Shown in pieces: positions 30,267-45,829 of a DNA stretch of 47,138 nt. The stretch comes from Accumulibacter sp. Its GTDB lineage: Bacteria > Pseudomonadota > Gammaproteobacteria > Burkholderiales > Rhodocyclaceae. The notes beneath the pieces are model-generated. The model saw nothing but the letters and a program-made list of their open reading frames with translations. It was not told where the DNA came from and made no database searches. Position numbers and translations under genes: made by a program. The first letter of the stretch is position 1. Each line of letters begins with the position of its first letter. The stretch covers positions 1 to 47,138 of the forward strand of contig JAIFKU010000073.1 in assembly GCA_020049495.1 (NCBI GenBank), read 5' to 3'.

Positions 30267-31535
30267 TTAGCGTGTTATTGCGCGATATCCGATGTCGCGA
30301 CGGTACTGCATGCCGTCGAAGTGGATGCCGACGAGAGCGTCGTACGCCTGCTTCTGGGCCTGCCTGACGTTGTCGCCGAGCGCCGTGACGCACAGCACGC
30401 GACCGCCCGAAGTCAGAATCTTGCCGCCCTTTTCTTCCGTGCCGGCATGGAAGATGTGCACGGTCTCGCTTTCCGCCGGCAGGCCGCTGATGACGTCGCC
30501 CTTGCGCGGCGAGGCCGGATAGTTGGCCGCCGCGAGGACCACGCCCATGGCCACGCGCCGGTCCCACTCGGCCTCAACCTGGTCAAGCTTGCCGGCGACC
30601 GCGTGTTCGAGCAGCGTGAGCAGACTGGATTTGAGGCGCATCATGATCGGCTGCGTTTCAGGGTCGCCCATGCGGCAATTGAATTCGACCGTCTTGACCG
30701 AACCGTCCCTGCCGATCATCAGGCCGGCGTAGAGAAAGCCGGTATAGGGCATGCCGTCGGCCATCATCCCGCGCACGGTCGGAAGGATGATCTCGCGCAT
30801 CGCTCTGGCGTGGATCTCCGGGGTGACCACCGGTGCCGGCGAGTAGGCTCCCATGCCACCGGTATTGGGGCCGGTATCGCCGTCACCGATGCGCTTGTGA
30901 TCCTGGCTGGAGGCCAGCGGCAAGACGTTCTTGCCGTCGACCATGACGATGAAGCTGGCTTCCTCGCCATCGAGAAACTCCTCGATGACCACGCGTGAGC
31001 CCGCATCTCCCAAGGTATTGCCGGAAAGCATGTCGTCAATGGCGCGGTGCGCCTCGTCCAGCGCCATGGCCACGACAACGCCCTTGCCGGCGGCCAGTCC
31101 ATCGGCCTTGATGACGATCGGCGCGCCCTGCTGCTCGACGTAGGCATGGGCGGCGGCGATGTCGCTAAAGGTTTTGAAAGCCGCGGTCGGGATGTGGTGC
31201 CGGGTCATGAAGCGCTTGGCAAAATCCTTCGAACTCTCAAGTTGGGCAGCTTCGCGGGTGGGGCCAAAGATTTTCAGGCCGCGGGCGCGGAAAATATTGA
31301 CGATGCCGGCGGCCAGTGGTGCTTCAGGTCCGACGACGGTCAGGTAAATGCCTTCCTTCTCGGCAAAATCGGCGAGGGCGACCGGGTCGCTTATCGCGAT
31401 GTTTTCCAGTTCTGCTTCATGTGCCGTGCCGGCGTTGCCGGGCGCCACGTAGATTTTCTGCAGCCCGGAGTTCCTGGCCAGGCGCCAGGCCAGGGCGTGT
31501 TCCCGGCCGCCGGAACCAATCACAAGCAATTTCAT
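30267..31535 (-). CDS. purD: Phosphoribosylamine--glycine ligase (GAR synthetase)
   Basis: ATP-grasp enzyme of 422 residues for the second step of purine synthesis. The N-terminal [16 protein letters not shown] motif, the ATP-grasp core around [11 protein letters not shown], and the metal-binding [13 protein letters not shown] are diagnostic. It lies 100 bases downstream of purH, with an inverted repeat between them, and is followed directly by hemF. The start at 31535 is the standard one. Confidence 0.96.
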
Positions 31536-31566
31536 AAAAATCCTTTCGCCAGCAACTCACCAGAAC

Positions 31567-31613
31567 AGGACGCCAGAATGCACCAGGAATGTCTTTGCCC
31601 GAGCTGGCGTCCT
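31567..31613. other. Inverted repeat between purH and purD
   Basis: AGGACGCCAG (31567-31576) pairs perfectly with CTGGCGTCCT (31604-31613) around a 27-base loop. It lies in the transcript between purH and purD and has no T-run on the downstream side, so it is more likely a processing or stability structure than a terminator. Confidence 0.5.
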
Positions 31614-31635
31614 TTGTCTAGTGTGGTGAGAATGA

Positions 31636-33210
<1,575 letters not shown>

Positions 33211-33240
33211 GATGGATATTTTCGGGTTCAAAAATCGGGT

Positions 33241-35780: not shown

Positions 35781-37059
35781 CCTCAATTTCGGCAATCGTT
35801 TTCGGTGCCGTGGTATAAACCTCGCACCCCTCGGTGCTGACAAAGGCATCATCTTCGATGCGGATGCCGATGCCATGCAGGTGTTCGGGCACATCGGCCC
35901 CCGCCCGGATGTAGAGACCGGGTTCGATGGTCAGCGCCATGCCGGGTTCGAGCCGTACCCAGTCGTCGCCGGATTTGTATTCGCCGGCATCATGCACGTC
36001 GAGCCCGAGCCAGTGCCCGGTACGGTGCATGTAGAAGGGCTTGTAGGCTTCGCTTTCGATCAGGCCGTCAACGCTGCCGGCCAGCAGCTTGAGGTCGGCC
36101 ATGCCCTGAACCAGGACGCGCAGGGCCGCGTCGTGGTAGGCGATGAAGGGCGCACCCGGCTTGATGGCGCCGATCGCCGCTGCCTGTGCTGCAAGAACGA
36201 TGGCATAAACATCGCGCTGCACGGCGCTGAAGCGGCCGTTGATCGGGAAAGAACGCGTGATGTCGGAGGCGTAGCCTTGGACTTCGCAGCCGGCGTCGAT
36301 CAGCACCAAAGCATTTTCTGCAAGCGGCTTGTCGTTTTCGACGTAGTGCAGAACGCAGGCGTTGCTGCCGCCGGCGACGATCGGCGAATAGGCGTGACCG
36401 GTCGCGCCGCGCTGGCGGAATTCATGGGCGAGTTCGGCTTCGAGTTCGTATTCGGCCATGCCGGGACGGCAGGCGCGCATGGTGCGGGCATGCGCCGATG
36501 AGGCAATGGCGGCAGCCCGGCGCATGATGGACATTTCGTGCTCGTCCTTGCGCAAGCGCATGCGGTCGAGCGGCGTGTGCAGGTCGTGCATTGCTCCCGG
36601 CGCCCGCTTGCCGGCCCGGCTTTGCGCGCGCACCGTGTTCAACGCACTGACGATCTTTGCATCCCAGGCGGCGTCGTGACCCAGTGCATGCCACAGCGAG
36701 CCGCGCTTGGCGATGAGTTCGGGCAACTTCTCTTCGAACGCGCTGAAGGGATAGGCCCGGTCAAAGCCGAAGGCGTCGCATGCCGCTTCGGGCCCGTGGC
36801 GGAAGCCATCCCACACCTCGCGCTCGGCATTCTTTTCGCGGCAGAAAAGGATTGATTCCGGTTCATGGCCGCCGATCAGGACGATCACCGCCTCGGGTTC
36901 AGGAAAACCCGAGAGATACCAGAAGTAACTGTCGAAACGGTAGGGGTAGTAGGCGTCGCGGTTGCGCAGGCGTTCGGGCGCGGTCGGGATGATGGCTACG
37001 CCGTCGCCGATCTGTTCGAGCAGTGCACTGCGGCGGGTCGAGTAGGGTTCGTTGTTCAT
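35761..37059 (-). CDS. pepP: Xaa-Pro aminopeptidase
   Basis: Cytoplasmic dinuclear metallopeptidase (432 residues) removing N-terminal residues before proline. It has an N-terminal creatinase-like domain and the pita-bread domain with all metal ligands visible: IDAGCEVQGYASDITRSF (two Asp), HRTGHWLGLDVHD (His), IEPGLY (Glu) and RIEDD (Glu). The start overlaps the murU stop by 4 bases, and the stop overlaps ubiH, so murU-pepP-ubiH are translationally linked. Confidence 0.95.
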   Translation of the reverse strand: MNNEPYSTRRSALLEQIGDGVAIIPTAPERLRNRDAYYPYRFDSYFWYLSGFPEPEAVIVLIGGHEPESILFCREKNAEREVWDGFRHGPEAACDAFGFDRAYPFSAFEEKLPELIAKRGSLWHALGHDAAWDAKIVSALNTVRAQSRAGKRAPGAMHDLHTPLDRMRLRKDEHEMSIMRRAAAIASSAHARTMRACRPGMAEYELEAELAHEFRQRGATGHAYSPIVAGGSNACVLHYVENDKPLAENALVLIDAGCEVQGYASDITRSFPINGRFSAVQRDVYAIVLAAQAAAIGAIKPGAPFIAYHDAALRVLVQGMADLKLLAGSVDGLIESEAYKPFYMHRTGHWLGLDVHDAGEYKSGDDWVRLEPGMALTIEPGLYIRAGADVPEHLHGIGIRIEDDAFVSTEGCEVYTTAPKTIAEIEDVMRRD

Positions 37060-37748
37060 TGGGCTAGTCTCAGTTCATGATCGAGTTCGGCAAGGCGCTC
37101 GGGGGTTCCTACGTCGACCCACCGGCCCGCATGACGTTCCCCGGTGACGATGCCGCGCAGGATTCCAGCGTCGAGCAGAGGGCGCATCTTCATGATTGCA
37201 CCGACCGGGACCGTGGCGAAAAACTCCGGCGCGAATACGCCGGTACCGGCGTAGGTCAGCGTCGGACCGATGCCGGTGCTGGCGTATCTGACGGTCTTGC
37301 CGTCGAGACAGAAATCGCCCCCCGCATGTTGCGCCGGATTGTCGACGAAGACCAGATGCGCCTGGTTGCTGCCGAGTCCCTGAGCGCACTGGTACGCCTG
37401 CGAGAACTCCCAGTCACACCAGACATCGCCATTGATGACCAGAAACGGCGCCTTGCCGAGTAGGGGAAGCGCCCTGGCGATGCCGCCTGCGGTTTCCAGT
37501 GCTCCCGGCGGTTCCGGCGAGTAGCGGATATTCAGTCCGAATCGGTGGCCGTCGCCGAGCGCGTTTTCAATCTGCTCGCCGAGGTGGGCGTGGTTGATGA
37601 CTATATCATTGAAACCCGCAGCGGCCAGGCGCTCGAGATGCCAGACGATCAGCGGCTTGCCGCCGGCGTGCAGTAGCGGTTTTGGCGTGCTGTCGGTGAG
37701 CGGGCGCATGCGATCGCCGCGACCGGCGGCCAGGATCATGACGCGCAT
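37056..37748 (-). CDS. murU: N-acetylmuramate alpha-1-phosphate uridylyltransferase
   Basis: Nucleotidyltransferase of 230 residues. The pyrophosphorylase loop AAGRGDRMRPLTDSTPKPLL and the metal site NGDVWCD are visible. Lacking the C-terminal hexapeptide domain of GlmU and lying directly after an AmgK-like kinase, it fits MurU, which makes UDP-MurNAc in the peptidoglycan recycling pathway that bypasses de novo synthesis and lowers sensitivity to fosfomycin. The amgK-murU pair beside lptD is known in Pseudomonas and other proteobacteria. Confidence 0.88.
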   Translation of the reverse strand: MRVMILAAGRGDRMRPLTDSTPKPLLHAGGKPLIVWHLERLAAAGFNDIVINHAHLGEQIENALGDGHRFGLNIRYSPEPPGALETAGGIARALPLLGKAPFLVINGDVWCDWEFSQAYQCAQGLGSNQAHLVFVDNPAQHAGGDFCLDGKTVRYASTGIGPTLTYAGTGVFAPEFFATVPVGAIMKMRPLLDAGILRGIVTGERHAGRWVDVGTPERLAELDHELRLAQ

Positions 37749-37784: not shown

Positions 37785-38804
37785 CTAAAAAGTGTAGGCG
37801 ACATCGGCGTGCCTGTTTTCCAGTTGGTCGAGCAGACGCGCCAGCGGCCGCAGTTCCAGGTAGCGCTCGCAGGTTCGGCGCAGGTAGTGCATCACGCGCG
37901 GCATGTCCTGCAGGTAGGCGTCCTTGCCGTCCCGGTGGCAGAGGCGGGCAAAGATGCCAAGGACCTTGATCTGGCGTTGTGCTCCCATCCATTCGTAATC
38001 GCGGTAAAAATTGTCGAAGTTGGCCGGCACCGGCAGTCCGGCATGGCGCGCCCGTTCCCAGTAGCGGATTACGAAATCGAGCTCCTGCTCTTCTTCCCAG
38101 GCGATGTAGGCGTCGCGGTAGAGCGAGACGAGATCGTAGGAGATCGGTCCAAAGACCGCGTCCTGAAAATCGATGATCCCGGGGTTGGCCGGATAGTCTT
38201 CTCCGGAGAGCATCAGGTTGCGCGAATGGTAGTCGCGATGAACGAAAACCTGCGCTTGTCCGAGGTTGTTGTCGAGAATCCTGGCGAATACCGAACGCAG
38301 CGTTGCCTGCTGATCGGTGTCGAGCGTGAGGCCCAGATGGCGTGCGACATACCAGTCCGGGAAGAGATCGAGTTCGCGGCTGAGCAAGGTACGGTCGTAT
38401 TCGGGCAGCACGCCGGGTCGGCTGGCGCGCTGGATGTCGACCAGCGCTTCATTGGCATGACGATAAAGCATGGGTGCCGTGGTGGCGTCGAGCACGCTCA
38501 GGTAAGTGTTTTTTCCCAGGTCGGAAAGGAGCAGAAATCCCTGCGCCAGATCCTCGGCATGGACTTCGGGGACATGCACGCCGGCGGCGCGGAAAAGTGC
38601 GGCAATCTTCAGGAAGGGCCGGCAATCCTCGTGTTCGGGCGGGGCATCCATGATGATGCGGGTAGTTTCGTCCGGCAGCGTGATGCGGAAATAGCGCCGG
38701 AAGCTGGCGTCGGCCGAGGCCGGTTCGAGCACGAATTCCTGGTCGGGGTACTGGCGCGAGTAGAAGCGGTTAAGCCAGTCGCGCAGCAGGACGGTACGCG
38801 GCAT
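37785..38804 (-). CDS. amgK: N-acetylmuramate/N-acetylglucosamine kinase
   Basis: Aminoglycoside-phosphotransferase-fold sugar kinase of 339 residues. The catalytic loop HRDYHSRNLM with its Asp, the metal motif IDFQDA and the N-terminal ASFRRYFRI are typical of AmgK, the anomeric kinase feeding MurU. The gene is divergent from the lptD operon, with 115 bases and a dyad operator candidate between. The start ATG at 38804 is preceded by AAGGAGAAG, a strong ribosome site. Confidence 0.9.
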   Translation of the reverse strand: MPRTVLLRDWLNRFYSRQYPDQEFVLEPASADASFRRYFRITLPDETTRIIMDAPPEHEDCRPFLKIAALFRAAGVHVPEVHAEDLAQGFLLLSDLGKNTYLSVLDATTAPMLYRHANEALVDIQRASRPGVLPEYDRTLLSRELDLFPDWYVARHLGLTLDTDQQATLRSVFARILDNNLGQAQVFVHRDYHSRNLMLSGEDYPANPGIIDFQDAVFGPISYDLVSLYRDAYIAWEEEQELDFVIRYWERARHAGLPVPANFDNFYRDYEWMGAQRQIKVLGIFARLCHRDGKDAYLQDMPRVMHYLRRTCERYLELRPLARLLDQLENRHADVAYTF

Positions 38805-38919: not shown

Positions 38920-41900
38920 ATGAAATCAACCGTCCGGCGCAAACCACTCGCGCTGTTCCTTTTTTACGGCGTTGCGAGCGTTCTGGTCGGTGCCGCCGAT
39001 CAGGCGCAGGCGCAGGCTCCCGTGCCGCTGCGCGTCGATCCGGTATTGCTCGGTCTGCCACCGATAAAGCCGGCAGAAGCTCCCGCACCTGCCGCCGTTC
39101 CAGCGCCGGCTGAAAAGGCGCGCGTCGAGGTCAAGCCGATCGAGGCGCCCGTTGTTGAAACGCGACCTGCCGTACCGCCAGCGGCGCCGATAGTGGCCGT
39201 CCCTCCGCCGGTTCAGGCGCAACCGGTGAGCGTATCGCCGGTGCCTGTGCCAGCGGCATCAGGGCCGGCGAAACCAGCGCAAGCTTCAGCGCCAGCGCCG
39301 GTAACGGCAACACCGTCAGCAACAAAGCCGGTCGCATCGGCTCCGGCCGCACTGGCTCCGGCCGCACTGGCTCCGGCCGCTTTCACACCCCTTGCTGCGG
39401 CTTCGTCAGCCGCCTCCGGCACAGTCTCGGCCTTGGCACCGTTGCGCGTAGACCCGGCGCTGCTCGGGCTGCCTCCTGTCGCGGCATCGGTTTCGACGTC
39501 TCAAGCCTCGGCAGCAAGGGCGGCAACGTCACTGGTATCGGGCGACGTACTCGCAGCAGGGCTGGTTTCGGGAGGGACGAAGCCGGCGGCTTTCAGAAAG
39601 TCAGCCGACGCCGACAAGTCCTGGTACCAGCGACTGTGGAGTCCGATTGCCAATGCTTACGACAAGGGTGACTGGGAGTTTTATCTGCCCTTGCGCACGC
39701 ACCATTTGCGCAGCCAGTATTCGGCCGAGAAAATTGCCTCGTATCAGGAAACACCCTACGGCTTTGGCCTAGGCAGCGGAATGTACAACGAGCATGGGAA
39801 CTGGGAAGGCGTGTATGTGATGGCTTTCCAGGATTCGCACTTCAAGCCGATGTACATGGCCGGTTACGGCTGGAAAGCCATGTGGCGACCGGTCGAGGAT
39901 GTTCGTCTGGGGCTCGGGTATACCGCGGCCCTGATGTCGCGCACGGACATTCTTGGCTACGTACCCTTCCCGATTGTCTTGCCGATGGCCTCCGTGGCCT
40001 ACAAGAGCTTCAGTCTGGAAGGCACTTACGTTCCCGGCGGCGAGGGTTTCGGCAACATTTTCTTCATCTGGGCCAAATGGGAACTGGGCAAATCGGGACA
40101 GCCCGTCGGCACGCCGGCGCGCCCGGAACAGTCGGCACCGACCGAACTGGCCAACACGTCTTTCGGGCCGTCTACCCCGCTGGCTCGCCAGCAAGTGCCC
40201 TTTGGCCCGGTGCTTGAGCCCGGTCCGGGGTTCCGTCTTGCCGCGCCGGCGGAAACCGTGCCGCCGCTGGTAGCATCAAGAGGCTGGCGGGACGAGGAAG
40301 AAGTGCCCGATGTCCTGCCGGCACTGGCCTTGCGTTCGGCCAAGTCCATGCAGCCTCCGCCGAAGGAAAGCCCAGTGCCGCGACCGGTTTTCCTCAGTGC
40401 CTACCGGATGGGGGGAGATATTGACCGGGAGTTTGTTGCCGAAGGTGATGCCGAACTGCGCAAGATCGGTACCGTAGTCAATTCCGATCGCCTGACCTAC
40501 TGGCCGGTCGATGATGAGATCGAGGCCGAGGGCAATGTCCGTCTGGAGCAGGGGGATAGTCTGATTACCGGACCGAAAATGCGGCTCAAGCTCGAAGATC
40601 AGGTGGGCTTTTTCGAGCAACCTTCGTATCACATCAAACGGCAGCCTCAACCCGGCAGCCAGGCGGCGGCCGACAAGGCCTTTGCCGCACAATTCCTTGA
40701 GCAGCAGGGGGATTCGTGGAACTCGGGATTTGCCCTGCCGCGTTCGTTTAACCAGACCTCGACCAATTTGCCGACCATGGCGCAGACCATGTCGGATGGA
40801 CGAGGCGAGGCTGACCGGATCGACTTCGAGGGCGAGAATCAGGTCCGGTTGACGAACGGAAGCTATACGACGTGCGCGCCGGGCAACAATGATTGGTACG
40901 CCAAGGCCAGTGATCTCAAGCTCGATTACGACCATGAAACCGGCCAAGGCAAGGACGGTAAGCTTTATTTCATGGATGTGCCGATTCTGTACTCGCCGTG
41001 GCTGTCGTTTTCGCTGAACAACGCCCGTAAATCGGGATTCCTTGCGCCGTCGTTCGGGGCGACCAGCGACAGTGGCTTTTCAGTCAGGCAACCCTACTAC
41101 TGGAATATCGCCCCGAACATGGATGCGACGATCACGCCGCGTGTGCTGAGCAAACGCGGCGCTCTGCTTAGTTCGGAATTCCGCTACCTAAATACCGCGT
41201 TCGGCGGCGGCTATCGCGGAGAGGCTAGAATCGAGACGCTGCCCAACGACAAGTTGAGAGAAGGCGACAGCCGCTACGGAATATCTCTTGTGCACAACCA
41301 GAATCTGGCCAACGGTTTTTCGGGGATGATCAACTACAACAAGGTCTCCGATAACAATTACTTCACCGATCTGTCAAGCAACGTCGTGAGCACCTCGCAG
41401 TCCCAACTCATGCAACAGGGCATGGTGAGCTATGGTGGTGGGGGCTGGTGGAGTGCCACGGCCAATTTCCAGAATTATCAGACACTGCAACCCGACCCGA
41501 AGAATCCGGTGCTTGAACAGTACCGCATGCTGCCGCAAATTACCCTCAATGCCCGCAAGCCCGACTGGTATCTGACCGACAGCAGTTTCATGGGGCAGTA
41601 CACTTCGTTCTCCAAACCGAAGCAGGTAATCAACGGCAACACCGTGGCCGATCCCAGCGGGCAGCGCCTGGTGCTCTATCCGCAGGTGGCACTACCGTAT
41701 GTGACCCCGGGGTGGTACGTGACTCCCAAGCTCGGCCTGAACATTCGTAACTATGTGCTGGACGGGCTGGCGCCGGGTCAGCCGGATTCGTTCAACAGCA
41801 CGCTGCCAGTGGTCAGTATTGATTCGGGCATGACCTTCGAGCGGGCAAGCCGCTGGTTCGGACGCGACTACACCCAGACCCTGGAGCCCCGCCTCTTCTA

Positions 41901-42717
41901 CCTGAATATTCCGTACAAGAATCAGGACGGGATCCCGCTTTTTGATTCCGGTCTGGCGGATTTCAACTTTGCGCAGATTTTCTCCGAGAACCAATTTTCC
42001 GGCTGGGACCGTATCAACAATGCCAACCAGTTGACGGCGGCCGCAACGACCCGCCTGCTCGATCCTGCAACGGGTTCGGAAATCATGCGTGCGATGCTCG
42101 GTCAGCGTTTCTATTTCACCAGGAACCAGGTGGCACTCGCTGCCAATCCCGCCCCGCTTACCGACGATAGAAAATGGGACAAGTCCGATTTTCTGGCGGC
42201 CTTCAGTGGCCAGATTCTGCCCCGGGTCTATGCCGATGTGGCTTCGCAGTACAACTTTGGCGATCGCCAGGTCAAACGCTATTCGATGGGCGTACGCTAT
42301 CAGCCGGAACCGGGCAAGGTGCTGAACGCTGCGTATCGTTACAACCGCGATGCCACCGCACCGATCGACCAGGTCGACTTTTCCGGGCAGTGGCCGATTT
42401 CGGGGCGCTGGCATGGTGTCGGGCTACTCAACTATTCGTTCAAGGATCCGGGAACGAATCTTTCAACCAGTTCTCAGGGCGGGCGCCTGATCCAGACCAT
42501 CGCCGGCCTGGAATACAACGGCGGGTGCTGGGTCGTGCGTGGCGTCTTCCAGCGATTGGCCCTGACCCAGGACAAGGCTTCGACGGGCTTCTTCATCCAG
42601 CTTGAGCTGAATGATTTTGCCAGTATCGGCTCGAATCCGGTCAATCTCCTGCGGCGCAATATCCAAGGCTACAGCCTGATCAACCAACCCGTGGCCGATC
42701 CTGTTTTTGGCCAATAG
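38920..42717 (+). CDS. lptD: PagP-LptD fusion: lipid A palmitoyltransferase domain joined to the LPS-assembly outer-membrane protein
   Basis: 1265 residues, against about 780 for E. coli LptD. Order: signal peptide (1-32), Ala/Pro-rich spacer (33-230) with the motif PLRVDPxLLGLPP at 36-48 and again at 174-186, a PagP-like domain (about 234-390), a Pro-rich linker (391-488), the LptD periplasmic OstA domain (about 489-575) and the LptD barrel (to the end). In the PagP part the amphipathic N-terminal helix (SWYQRLWSPIA), GNWEGVYVMAFQDSH, GYGWKAMWRP and the aromatic C-terminal strand are clear, and H262, D305 and S306 align with the catalytic His33, Asp76 and Ser77 of PagP. Only two Cys occur, C652 and C1203, aligning with the second disulfide of E. 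coli LptD. surA, pdxA and rsmA follow. The start has a weak ribosome site. A genuine fusion: the frame is open with no stop. Confidence 0.93.
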   Translation: MKSTVRRKPLALFLFYGVASVLVGAADQAQAQAPVPLRVDPVLLGLPPIKPAEAPAPAAVPAPAEKARVEVKPIEAPVVETRPAVPPAAPIVAVPPPVQAQPVSVSPVPVPAASGPAKPAQASAPAPVTATPSATKPVASAPAALAPAALAPAAFTPLAAASSAASGTVSALAPLRVDPALLGLPPVAASVSTSQASAARAATSLVSGDVLAAGLVSGGTKPAAFRKSADADKSWYQRLWSPIANAYDKGDWEFYLPLRTHHLRSQYSAEKIASYQETPYGFGLGSGMYNEHGNWEGVYVMAFQDSHFKPMYMAGYGWKAMWRPVEDVRLGLGYTAALMSRTDILGYVPFPIVLPMASVAYKSFSLEGTYVPGGEGFGNIFFIWAKWELGKSGQPVGTPARPEQSAPTELANTSFGPSTPLARQQVPFGPVLEPGPGFRLAAPAETVPPLVASRGWRDEEEVPDVLPALALRSAKSMQPPPKESPVPRPVFLSAYRMGGDIDREFVAEGDAELRKIGTVVNSDRLTYWPVDDEIEAEGNVRLEQGDSLITGPKMRLKLEDQVGFFEQPSYHIKRQPQPGSQAAADKAFAAQFLEQQGDSWNSGFALPRSFNQTSTNLPTMAQTMSDGRGEADRIDFEGENQVRLTNGSYTTCAPGNNDWYAKASDLKLDYDHETGQGKDGKLYFMDVPILYSPWLSFSLNNARKSGFLAPSFGATSDSGFSVRQPYYWNIAPNMDATITPRVLSKRGALLSSEFRYLNTAFGGGYRGEARIETLPNDKLREGDSRYGISLVHNQNLANGFSGMINYNKVSDNNYFTDLSSNVVSTSQSQLMQQGMVSYGGGGWWSATANFQNYQTLQPDPKNPVLEQYRMLPQITLNARKPDWYLTDSSFMGQYTSFSKPKQVINGNTVADPSGQRLVLYPQVALPYVTPGWYVTPKLGLNIRNYVLDGLAPGQPDSFNSTLPVVSIDSGMTFERASRWFGRDYTQTLEPRLFYLNIPYKNQDGIPLFDSGLADFNFAQIFSENQFSGWDRINNANQLTAAATTRLLDPATGSEIMRAMLGQRFYFTRNQVALAANPAPLTDDRKWDKSDFLAAFSGQILPRVYADVASQYNFGDRQVKRYSMGVRYQPEPGKVLNAAYRYNRDATAPIDQVDFSGQWPISGRWHGVGLLNYSFKDPGTNLSTSSQGGRLIQTIAGLEYNGGCWVVRGVFQRLALTQDKASTGFFIQLELNDFASIGSNPVNLLRRNIQGYSLINQPVADPVFGQ
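39339..39383 (+). repeat. 15-base tandem repeat in the Ala/Pro spacer of the PagP-LptD gene
   Basis: GGCTCCGGCCGCACT is repeated twice exactly and a third time with a changed end, encoding three APAAL/F units. The unit length is a multiple of three, so copy number may vary without shifting the frame. Confidence 0.75.
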
Positions 42718-42729
42718 AAAGTGTTAAAG

Positions 42730-44040
42730 ATGATGAAATTGCTTAGTGCATGGGTTCTGTTTTCCTGCCTTTTCGGTATGGCCTGTGCACAATCACCGCA
42801 ACGGCAGGCCAGTGATCCTTTGCCGGCGGATCGTATTGTTGCCGTGGTCAATGACGAGGTGATTACCTACCACGAGTTACGCACGCGCCTTGATCTGGCG
42901 CTCAGCCAACTGAAGCGGCAGGGAACCGCTCTGCCCCCGCGCGATGTGCTCGAGAAGCAGATGCTTGAACGTCTGGTGATGGACAAGGTTCAGTTGCAGC
43001 ATGCGCGGGACATCGGTTTGCGCGTTGATGACACGCAACTCGAGCAGGCACTGCAGCGCATTGCCGCCGGCAACAAGATGTCGCTAGTGCAGTTTCGCGA
43101 GGCTCTGCAGAAGGACGGAATTCAGTTCGTGAAGTTTCGTGAGGATATCCGTGAAGAAATGACCATTGCCCGTGTCCGTGAGCGTGAAGTGGAAAACAAG
43201 ATTGCCATTTCTGAAGGCGAGATTGACAACTATCTGAGCGGCGATTCGGCGAAAGGAAGAGCGAGTGAAGAGTTCGAAGTGGCGCACATTCTTTTGCGTT
43301 CTCCCGAATCGGCGAGTCCGGAACAGATTCAGCAACTCAAGGCCAAGACCGATCAGGTGTTTGAACGGCTGAAGAAAGGCGAGGATTTTGCGCAGATGGC
43401 GGCCGCCTATTCCGACTCGCCCGACGGGCTGCAGGGAGGCAGCCTGGGAATGCGCACAGCGGATCGTCTGCCCGGGATCTTTTCTGAAATTGTCAGCAAG
43501 CTCAATGTCGGCGAAATTGCACCAATCCTGCGCAGTCCGAACGGTTTTCACATTGTCAAGCTGGTTGCAAAGCGCGGTGGCGCGACCATGCCTGCGGTTC
43601 AGCAAACGCACGCCCGGCATATCCTGATCAAGGTCAATGAAGTGGTTTCCGAAGCCGATGCCAGGCACAAGCTGAGCGGTTTGTACGATCGCATCAAGAA
43701 CGGTACCAGTTTTGCCGAACTGGCCAGACTGTTCTCGCAGGACGGTTCGGCGTCCAAGGGCGGTGATCTGGGCTGGCTTTATCCCGGCGATACCGTGCCC
43801 GATTTCGAGCGGGCGATGAATCAGTTGCAGCCGGGTGTAGTCAGCCAGCCGATTCAGTCGCCCTTCGGTTTCCATCTGATCGAAGTGCTTGAACGGCGCG
43901 TGCAGGATGTATCGGCTGATCGTCAGCGGGCCGCGGCGCGCCAGGTGCTGCGCGAGCGCAAGATGGACGAGGCGTATCAGGACTGGCTGCGTCAGGCGCG
44001 TGATCGCGCCTATGTCGAGAATCGCCTCGAGGAGCGATGA
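42730..44040 (+). CDS. surA: Periplasmic chaperone and peptidyl-prolyl isomerase SurA
   Basis: Chaperone for outer-membrane proteins, with LptD as a chief client. 436 residues: signal peptide ending near ACAQ, N-terminal SurA domain (about 28-145), and two parvulin domains (about 170-275 and 285-385; each with the VxHILL/HARHILI entry and GGxLGxM/GGDLGWL loop), then a short C-terminal helix. I chose the ATG at 42730; a GTG at 42721 and an ATG at 42733 are also in frame. It begins about 12 bases after the PagP-LptD stop and shares its transcript, supporting co-production of chaperone and client. Confidence 0.94.
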   Translation: MMKLLSAWVLFSCLFGMACAQSPQRQASDPLPADRIVAVVNDEVITYHELRTRLDLALSQLKRQGTALPPRDVLEKQMLERLVMDKVQLQHARDIGLRVDDTQLEQALQRIAAGNKMSLVQFREALQKDGIQFVKFREDIREEMTIARVREREVENKIAISEGEIDNYLSGDSAKGRASEEFEVAHILLRSPESASPEQIQQLKAKTDQVFERLKKGEDFAQMAAAYSDSPDGLQGGSLGMRTADRLPGIFSEIVSKLNVGEIAPILRSPNGFHIVKLVAKRGGATMPAVQQTHARHILIKVNEVVSEADARHKLSGLYDRIKNGTSFAELARLFSQDGSASKGGDLGWLYPGDTVPDFERAMNQLQPGVVSQPIQSPFGFHLIEVLERRVQDVSADRQRAAARQVLRERKMDEAYQDWLRQARDRAYVENRLEER

Positions 44041-44043
44041 GCC

Positions 44044-45039
44044 ATGCCGCAGCCTATCGTTGCCGTTACTTCAGGCGAACCGGCCGGGGTGGGCCCCGAG
44101 ATCTGTCTGCGTTTGCTTGAATGCGCCGGGCAGGCGCTTCCCGTTCAACTGGTCATCCTTGCCGATCGGCAACTGATGGCCGGGCGGGCGCAATCGGTCG
44201 GTTTCTCCGGCCGCTTGCGCGACTGGACGCCCGGTATGCCGCCAGCCCCTGGCACCCTCGACATATTGCACCTTCCATTGTCCGTCCCGTCATGCCCGGG
44301 AAAGCTTGATCCGGCCAATTCTCCCTACGTGCTTCAGTTGCTTGATCGCGCGCTCGAAGGCTGCCTGTCGCGCGAGTTTTCCGCGCTGGTCACGGCGCCG
44401 GTGCATAAGGGTGCTATCAATGATGCAGGCATTCCATTTATCGGGCATACCGAGTATCTGGCAGAGAAAACGCACACCGCGCACGTCGTGATGATGCTTG
44501 CCGGTGGCGGCATGCGCGTTGCATTGGCGACGACCCATCTGCCGCTGAAGGAGGTGCCGGCGGCGGTGACGCAGGCCTCCCTGGAACGGACGCTACGCAT
44601 CCTGCATGCCGATATGGGCAGGAAATTCGCTATCGGAAATCCGCGCATTCTGGTCGCCGGACTCAATCCGCATGCCGGCGAGAGCGGTTATCTCGGGCGT
44701 GAGGAGATTGAAGTCATCACGCCGGTGCTCGATCGTTTGCGTGCCGAGGGCATGATCCTGATCGGCCCGTTGCCTGCCGATACCCTGTTTACTCCGCCGA
44801 TGCTGTCCCGGGGTGATTGCGTACTGGCCATGTTTCATGACCAGGGATTGACGGCGCTCAAGTACGCCAGCTTCGGCAAGGGCATTAACGTCACGCTTGG
44901 CCTTCCCGTCATTCGCACCTCGGTTGACCACGGTACCGCGCTGGAACTGGCCGGAACCGGTCGCGCCGACCCCGGCAGCCTCTTTGTTGCCGTCGAACAG
45001 GCCATCGCGATGGCGCAGCGGGCGGAACTCAATCCCTGA
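44044..45039 (+). CDS. pdxA: 4-hydroxythreonine-4-phosphate dehydrogenase
   Basis: NAD-dependent enzyme (331 residues) in vitamin B6 synthesis. The N-terminal [13 protein letters not shown] block, the first metal His in FIGHTEYL, the motif GLNPHAGE with the second His, and MFHDQGL with the third are all present, followed by [18 protein letters not shown]. Length is normal. It starts 3 bases after the surA stop and is followed by rsmA, the conserved lptD-surA-pdxA-rsmA order. Confidence 0.96.
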
Positions 45040-45043
45040 GGCC

Positions 45044-45829
45044 ATGAACAAACATATTGCACGCAAGCGTTTTGGCCAGAATTTCCTGATCGACGCGCAG
45101 GTGATCGCTGATATTGTCGCCGCCGTGGCACCGCAGTGCGGGGATTGCGTCGTCGAGATCGGTCCCGGCCTTGGCGCGCTGACCGACCCCTTGCTGAAAA
45201 GGCTGGATCGTCTGCACGTGGTCGAAATCGACCGCGACATCATCGTCCGGCTCAGGCAGCGTTATTCGCCGGATAAACTCATCATCCACGAAGGCGACGC
45301 GCTGGTCTTCGATTTTTCTGCTCTGGCCGATTCTTCCGGCGGCGGTTTGCACATCGTTGGCAACCTGCCCTACAACATCTCGACGCCGCTGCTTTTCCAT
45401 CTGGCCGCTTGCGCAGATTGTGTAGCCGACATGCACTTCATGTTGCAGAAGGAGGTTGTCGAGCGCATGGTTGCCGAACCGGGCACGTCCGATTTCGGCC
45501 GCCTGTCGGTGATGCTTCAGTATCGCTTTATCATGGATTGTCTGATCGATGTGCCGCCCGAATCCTTCGCTCCGGCACCGAAAGTCGATTCGGCCTTCGT
45601 ACGCCTGATTCCCCGTCCGCCCGAGGAACTTTCGGCCAGGGACGAGGCGCAGTTTGCTGCACTGGTCTCCGCGGCCTTTGCCCAGCGGCGCAAGATGCTG
45701 CGCAACAACCTCAAGGGCATTCTTGGCGATAGTGGCTTTGAGGAACTCGGTATTGCACCGACCGCGCGTGCCGAGGAGTTGTCCGTAGCCGATTACATCC
45801 GCATGGCCAATGCCCTGGTTGTTCAGTAG
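45044..45829 (+). CDS. rsmA: 16S rRNA (adenine1518/1519-N6)-dimethyltransferase
   Basis: RsmA/KsgA of 261 residues dimethylates the two adjacent adenines of 16S rRNA helix 45. The N-terminus [11 protein letters not shown], the SAM motif [11 protein letters not shown], the catalytic NLPYNIS and the [11 protein letters not shown] block are complete. Start at 45044, just after the pdxA stop (4-base gap); the longer frame upstream shadows pdxA. It is the last gene of the operon and converges on guaC, with about 58 bases and no obvious terminator between. Confidence 0.96.

Follow-up and report, generated by a model that had tools for sequence, protein, structure and literature searches.

Why should the gene for LptD, the essential protein that inserts lipopolysaccharide (LPS), also encode PagP, the textbook sensor-enzyme of broken outer-membrane asymmetry, in the same reading frame? 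The question is raised by contig JAIFKU010000073.1 of an Accumulibacter sp. assembly (GCA_020049495.1), analysed over its 47,138 nucleotides (hereafter the window), in which positions 38920-42717 of the forward strand form a single uninterrupted ATG-initiated frame of 1265 amino acids (aa). A preliminary description, made from the sequence alone, had proposed that this frame holds PagP at residues 234-390 and an intact LptD from about residue 489. Both placements proved accurate: matches to PF07017 and NF008271 put the PagP limits right within a few residues, and LptD_N starts at aa 488. We consider it reasonably probable that the product is an active PagP-type palmitoyltransferase, which would be tethered beside the LPS exit on one chain with LptD.

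The PagP domain was recognized by both profile and structure. Pfam PagP (PF07017) matched aa 244-386 across profile positions 3-144 of 144 (E=3.4e-52, 176.2 bits against a cut-off of 24), and the NCBIfam PagP equivalog NF008271 matched aa 228-388 with 188.7 bits, above its cut-off of 155; E-values of this size, together with conservation in other genomes, exclude chance. The PDB sequence search retrieved 1mm4/1thq for PagP (3.2e-33). A model of residues 225-400, built on 26 aligned PagP sequences from fusions and free proteins, displayed a helix at model positions 11-25 and eight strands (predicted local distance difference test, pLDDT, 89.8; predicted template modelling score, pTM, 0.83). Foldseek returned 3gp6 first for this model (E 3.8e-15, template modelling (TM) score 0.76/0.85), then 1thq (4.0e-15) and 1mm4 (6.9e-11), with an OmpA barrel fourth at only 7.7e-4.

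The residues expected of the enzyme are in place. H262, D305 and S306, which had been assigned to the catalytic positions, indeed align with the His, Asp and Ser of E. coli PagP that we take to be catalytic His33, Asp76 and Ser77 (mature numbering), and the three are invariant in 14/14 fused rows and in all 26 fused and free PagP rows. Equally invariant in the 14 fused rows are P257, P279, P355 and P372, presumably the counterparts of P28, P50, P127 and P144, lipid-access sites of E. coli PagP, as well as a GTP tripeptide directly after the barrel (G173, T174 and P175 of A1). G317 (39868-39870) presumably corresponds to E. coli PagP G88, the ruler residue setting acyl length, and with glycine at this position palmitate is the chain expected for the window; five of the 14 fused rows carry another residue, namely S (G014), S (G013), Q (G022), A (G109) and T (G076), for which acyl chains of a different length would be predicted. 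Since the fold, the putative catalytic triad and the lipid-access prolines are kept, the domain is most likely an active PagP-type acyltransferase and most likely palmitoylates lipid A from outer-leaflet phospholipid.

The LptD part is likewise well defined. LptD_N (PF03968) matched aa 520-672 (E=7e-6, 26.7 bits, cut-off 20.4) and LptD (PF04453) aa 784-1164 (E=9.1e-98, 328.5 bits, cut-off 22.4), and the PDB sequence search yielded 7omm (2.7e-101). Two NCBIfam LptD equivalogs, NF002997 (355.7 of 683 bits) and NF003358 (333.2 of 944 bits), stayed below cut-off, and we take these to be models of other lineages. There are two cysteines in the chain, C652 (40873-40875) in the LptD periplasmic part and C1203 (42526-42528) near the barrel end, one in each of the two parts that a periplasmic domain-barrel disulfide would join; E. 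coli LptD has four, in two pairs. C652 and C1203 recur in 13 of the 14 fused proteins, those reaching both ends, and further cysteines are found only in the leader part of the frames.

Two transmembrane barrel families are thus carried by one chain, as judged from the PagP and LptD profiles and the PagP model, and the one-chain tether put forward in the preliminary description is borne out to the extent that both families are complete within one frame. A two-barrel topology fits, because both termini of PagP face the periplasm. A hydrophobic peak (2.41 for a 12-mer at aa 12-23) marks the signal peptide, and no second signal peptide lies between PagP and LptD, the highest 12-mer hydropathy within aa 391-490 being 1.03. 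Since the genome, 85% complete, shows one LptD and the linker no second signal peptide, LptD would reach the outer membrane only within the fusion, unless it is cleaved later.

To see how widely the fusion occurs, we turned to related genomes, taking the window's genus (g1) as Propionivibrio and g83 as Rhodocyclus, both presumed assignments. Sampling of the genus covered 28 genomes, counting the window's own. PagP turned up in 10 of them (G000, G005, G007, G008, G010, G013, G014, G019, G022 and G026), and in 10/10 it shares a frame with LptD; the fusions of G005 and G008 run off contig ends, and the gene of G022 is divided between two contigs, one of which holds both the junction and LptD. No free pagP was detected at E<=0.001 in any of these 28 genomes, several of which are incomplete, among them the window's own (178 contigs, 85% complete; one PagP match, the fused one, and one LptD match). 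Sixteen of the remaining 18 have LptD without PagP anywhere (G016 and G025 in partial view), and neither protein was found in the incomplete genomes G001 and G017. Relatives with a free pagP and no fusion, which the preliminary description had named as grounds against its proposal, do occur, but none of them belongs to the fusion clade. Within the family, PagP is present in 36/199 sampled genomes and fused in eight (four of the window's genus, three of g83 and one of g50), the unfused PagP frames measuring 135-593 aa, with that of G114 cut by a contig end. The order sample (PagP in 58/399) and the class sample (15/369) contain a frame longer than 1000 aa only in the window's genome. When named genomes were scanned with the alignment of fused PagPs, 27 loci were recovered. 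Thirteen belong to fused genes, in 12 genomes: 12 of these loci carry PagP and LptD in a single frame, and the thirteenth is the remaining piece of a split gene. The other 14 are unfused, with L185 truncated at a contig end. The fusion was thereby located in Propionivibrio dicarboxylicus DSM 5885, Candidatus Propionivibrio aalborgensis, metagenome-assembled genomes including one from groundwater, and three Rhodocyclus genomes (R. tenuis 2761, R. gracilis DSM 110 and R. purpureus DSM 168).

This distribution bears on the possibility that the fusion serves expression and export only, supplying a matched, constant dose of PagP on the essential LptD chain, with proximity to the LPS exit irrelevant. 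We judge it less likely than the tethered reading, but a serious alternative. It would accommodate linkers that are long and fast-evolving, the two groups of the genus that manage without the PagP domain, and the activity of PagP elsewhere as a free enzyme; it sits somewhat less easily with the retention of the fusion, and not of a separate gene, in every PagP-bearing genome of the genus, nor with the invariant GTP tripeptide after the barrel.

The linkers themselves raise another alternative. Across aa 36-228 the N-terminal linker consists to 73% of P, A, S, T and V, and the second linker is 54-148 aa long in the 14 fused proteins. Three fusions (L023, L024 and L025) have QAT(n) or QA(n) simple repeats in the N-terminal linker, which probably reflect fast-changing linker length. 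Long Pro/Ala-rich linkers are in general good protease targets, and the precursor could be cut after export, leaving mature PagP and LptD as separate proteins. Such processing appears unlikely, given that positive evidence for it is lacking, protease sites not having been searched for, and that the second linker keeps a broadly similar length of 94-129 aa in 10 Propionivibrio proteins.

Selection was assessed from dN/dS (the ratio of nonsynonymous to synonymous change) by the Nei-Gojobori method in nine pairwise comparisons of fused genes, which are not independent since genomes recur among the pairs. The ratios were 0.03-0.27 for PagP, 0.06-0.27 for LptD, 0.21-0.45 for the N-terminal part (with one pair of the nine saturated) and 0.21-0.54 for linker 2, the absolute values being rough because synonymous change is high in most pairs; the cleanest pair (G005 and G026) gave 0.028 for PagP, 0.064 for LptD, and 0.21 and 0.37 for the linkers. 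The PagP domain is under purifying selection as strict as that on LptD, and the linkers drift. It is therefore hard to credit a catalytically dead PagP domain retained as a structural or assembly module for LptD, for instance a chaperone of the lateral gate: a barrel could be repurposed by fusion to LptD, and other accessory subunits of the translocon exist (LptM and LptY, according to an excerpt of PMC12644819), but the low PagP dN/dS, the invariance of the putative catalytic H, D and S in fused and free rows alike, and the two groups living without the domain make this improbable. An assembly or frame artefact joining adjacent genes, also raised in the preliminary description, can be set aside even though the window comes from a 178-contig draft, since the same architecture recurs in independent assemblies, including those of the isolates P. 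dicarboxylicus DSM 5885, R. tenuis 2761, R. gracilis DSM 110 and R. purpureus DSM 168, and LptD adjoins pagP in 0/31 distinct free loci (from 36 unfused loci inspected with their flanks).

How the fusion might have arisen was addressed with trees and gene order. The LptD tree comprised 39 rows (14 fused, 25 unfused) over the C-terminal 640-650 aa (300 in one cut row) and was built with no mixture model, its long outgroup branches being flagged. On this tree the fused label changes 3 times, versus a mean of 11.7 after shuffling, and PagP-less groups of 12 and 3 rows are nested inside fused ones. On the PagP tree (75 rows, 200 bootstrap trees) the 15 fused PagP rows, from 14 genomes, form one clade with bootstrap 94. 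The two trees suggest a history of one gain and two losses. In 19 of the 31 distinct free loci pagP stands between purH and purD on their strand; two others show purH and one shows purD, the contig ending on the opposite side, and the context of the remaining nine is different. The corresponding purH-purD slot of the window is about 8 kb from lptD, and the gene run amgK-murU-pepP-FAD (flavin adenine dinucleotide) gene-dusB-purH-purD is the same as in relatives with free pagP; in one of these, G044, lptD and pagP are about 9 kb apart and on opposite strands. Based on the trees and the gene order, pagP probably left the purH-purD slot and entered the 5' part of lptD by a local rearrangement that also inverted it. 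A single move of about 8 kb would have taken place in the ancestor shared by Propionivibrio, Rhodocyclus and an uncultured relative, and the fused domain would later have been lost in two Propionivibrio lineages.

If PagP is indeed tethered beside the LPS exit, the one exported chain would fold into two outer-membrane barrels with a flexible periplasmic linker between them. A linker of 54-148 residues would hold PagP within some nanometres of the exit and fix its dose at one per LptD, and the PagP domain would transfer a palmitoyl chain from outer-leaflet phospholipid to lipid A. Newly delivered lipid A could thus be steadily palmitoylated and stray phospholipid near the exit removed, a steady tethered role replacing the on-demand role of free PagP. 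The usual PagP acyl chain is available in Rhodocyclus, because C16:0 makes up 33-36% of its fatty acids, beside 43-50% C16:1 (as given in an excerpt of PMC8954225). More tentatively, the two parts may work as a coupled machine, in which the adjacent PagP receives LPS as it exits the LptD lateral gate and acylates it on arrival using local phospholipid, so that the exit site polices asymmetry; if true, LPS delivery and lipid A acylation would be coupled in one machine.

Several observations weigh against a tethered, active palmitoyltransferase. Structure prediction bore out the proposed PagP domain; the model of aa 165-1265 (13 rows) failed (pLDDT 42.6, pTM 0.28) and gave no reliable barrel arrangement. 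In it the PagP part still has its helix and eight strands, and the linker is at very low confidence. The support for enzyme activity comprises sequence and predicted structure, no lipid A structure for these genera turned up in the literature searched, and with the ruler residue differing in 5/14 fused rows the added chain may not be palmitate in all of them. Cleavage after export would undo the tether. Fifteen genus genomes on the LptD tree are without the PagP domain, which is therefore dispensable. Relics of PagP, suspected in the PagP-less LptDs of the genus from their 984-1160 aa frames, were sought by profile with all filters off in the N-parts of 14 of these 15 LptDs (G025 excepted) and of 10 LptDs of other genera; no match was better than E 4.6, the window as control giving 2.9e-102, so none of the 14 with an N-part available retains a relic. 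These N-parts are linkers with 40-58% Pro, Ala, Ser, Thr and Val. As for the history, counts of changes on a tree cannot by themselves separate gain from loss, and the fused PagP clade has an SH-aLRT (Shimodaira-Hasegawa-like approximate likelihood ratio test) value of only 54.

The features of the fused gene and its surroundings are collected in the table below, in which murU and amgK are names that we have assigned to the divergent neighbours.

Table. Positions of the fused gene, its parts and its neighbours in the window
Feature	Position	Strand	Basis
lptD gene with in-frame pagP domain, 1265 aa	38920-42717	+	open frame, family matches
Signal peptide, approximately aa 1-34, with the cleavage site set by visual inspection	38920-39021	+	hydropathy; presumed position
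N-terminal linker, Pro/Ala-rich, presumably disordered, aa 35-233	39022-39618	+	composition
LRVDPxLLGLPP motif copy 1, aa 37-48	39028-39063	+	
LRVDPxLLGLPP motif copy 2, aa 175-186, upstream of PagP	39442-39477	+	
PagP domain, aa 234-390, N-terminal helix and eight-strand barrel	39619-40089	+	profiles, alignment, model
H262	39703-39705	+	alignment to 1mm4/3gp6; invariant in 14/14 fused rows
D305 and S306	39832-39837	+	alignment; invariant in 14/14 fused rows
Linker 2, aa 392-487, 96 aa	40093-40380	+	length, hydropathy
LptD, LptD_N periplasmic domain and outer-membrane barrel, aa 488-1265	40381-42714	+	profiles, PDB sequence search
purD	30267-31535	-	
purH-purD gap, 100 bases, without pagP	31536-31635	.	
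purH	31636-33231	-	
murU-like nucleotidyltransferase, divergent, upstream of lptD	37056-37748	-	Pfam
amgK-like APH-family kinase, divergent, upstream of lptD	37785-38804	-	Pfam
surA, pdxA, ksgA (RrnaAD), downstream of lptD	42721-45829	+	Pfam

The repeated motif is not confined to fusions: many LptDs of the window's family, fused or unfused, carry one to three copies of (L/F)RVDPxLLGLPP in their N-terminal region. Some LptDs of the set lack it, and a looser form appears three times in an LptD of another family (G035). The motif may serve the translocon as a short binding site.

A natural, conserved fusion indicates that proximity or a matched dose of PagP and LptD is useful in some bacteria. 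A genus with and without the domain offers a genetic handle on where lipid A is modified relative to the exit, and the same handle bears on whether phospholipid enters the outer leaflet near LptD. The assembly of two barrels on one chain, one of them with an internal end, can be studied on it as well, and the fusion is directly testable because it occurs in cultured environmental species.

No PagP-LptD fusion was encountered in the literature searched, which was screened mostly by title and start of the abstract and did not extend to the survey of multi-barrel outer-membrane proteins that Solan et al. reportedly published (PNAS 2021). Two-barrel chains are already known as a kind, and the pairing of PagP with LptD is apparently new within that literature. 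GfcD is a two-barrel outer-membrane protein (according to an excerpt of PMC11494523), and the fusion resembles it and other multi-barrel proteins in having two barrels on one chain, but differs in pairing the LPS translocon with what would be an enzyme that modifies lipid A. A closer parallel in part is found in f20, another family of the order Burkholderiales, where PagP is followed in frame by an OMP_b-brl barrel in L029 (G053, E 6.3e-10) and L158 (G546, E 5e-10). These share with the window a PagP within a double-barrel chain; their partner is a generic small barrel and not LptD, and their PagP falls far from the fused clade on the PagP tree. Five further f20 genomes have PagP frames of 389-486 aa.

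Compared with PagP as it is otherwise known (PF07017; NF008271; E. coli 1thq and 3gp6), the domain in the window has the full profile, the helix and eight strands, the His, Asp and Ser, the lipid-access prolines and the ruler glycine G317. Unlike free PagP, it has linkers at both ends, and its C-terminal strand does not end the protein but is followed by LptD on the same chain; five of the 14 fused rows bear S, S, Q, A or T in place of the ruler G. With LptD (PF04453 and PF03968; 7omm and 4q35) it has in common the complete periplasmic domain and barrel, the position upstream of surA-pdxA-ksgA and the single match in the genome, whereas it departs from E. coli LptD in having two cysteines rather than four and an extra barrel enzyme before the periplasmic domain.

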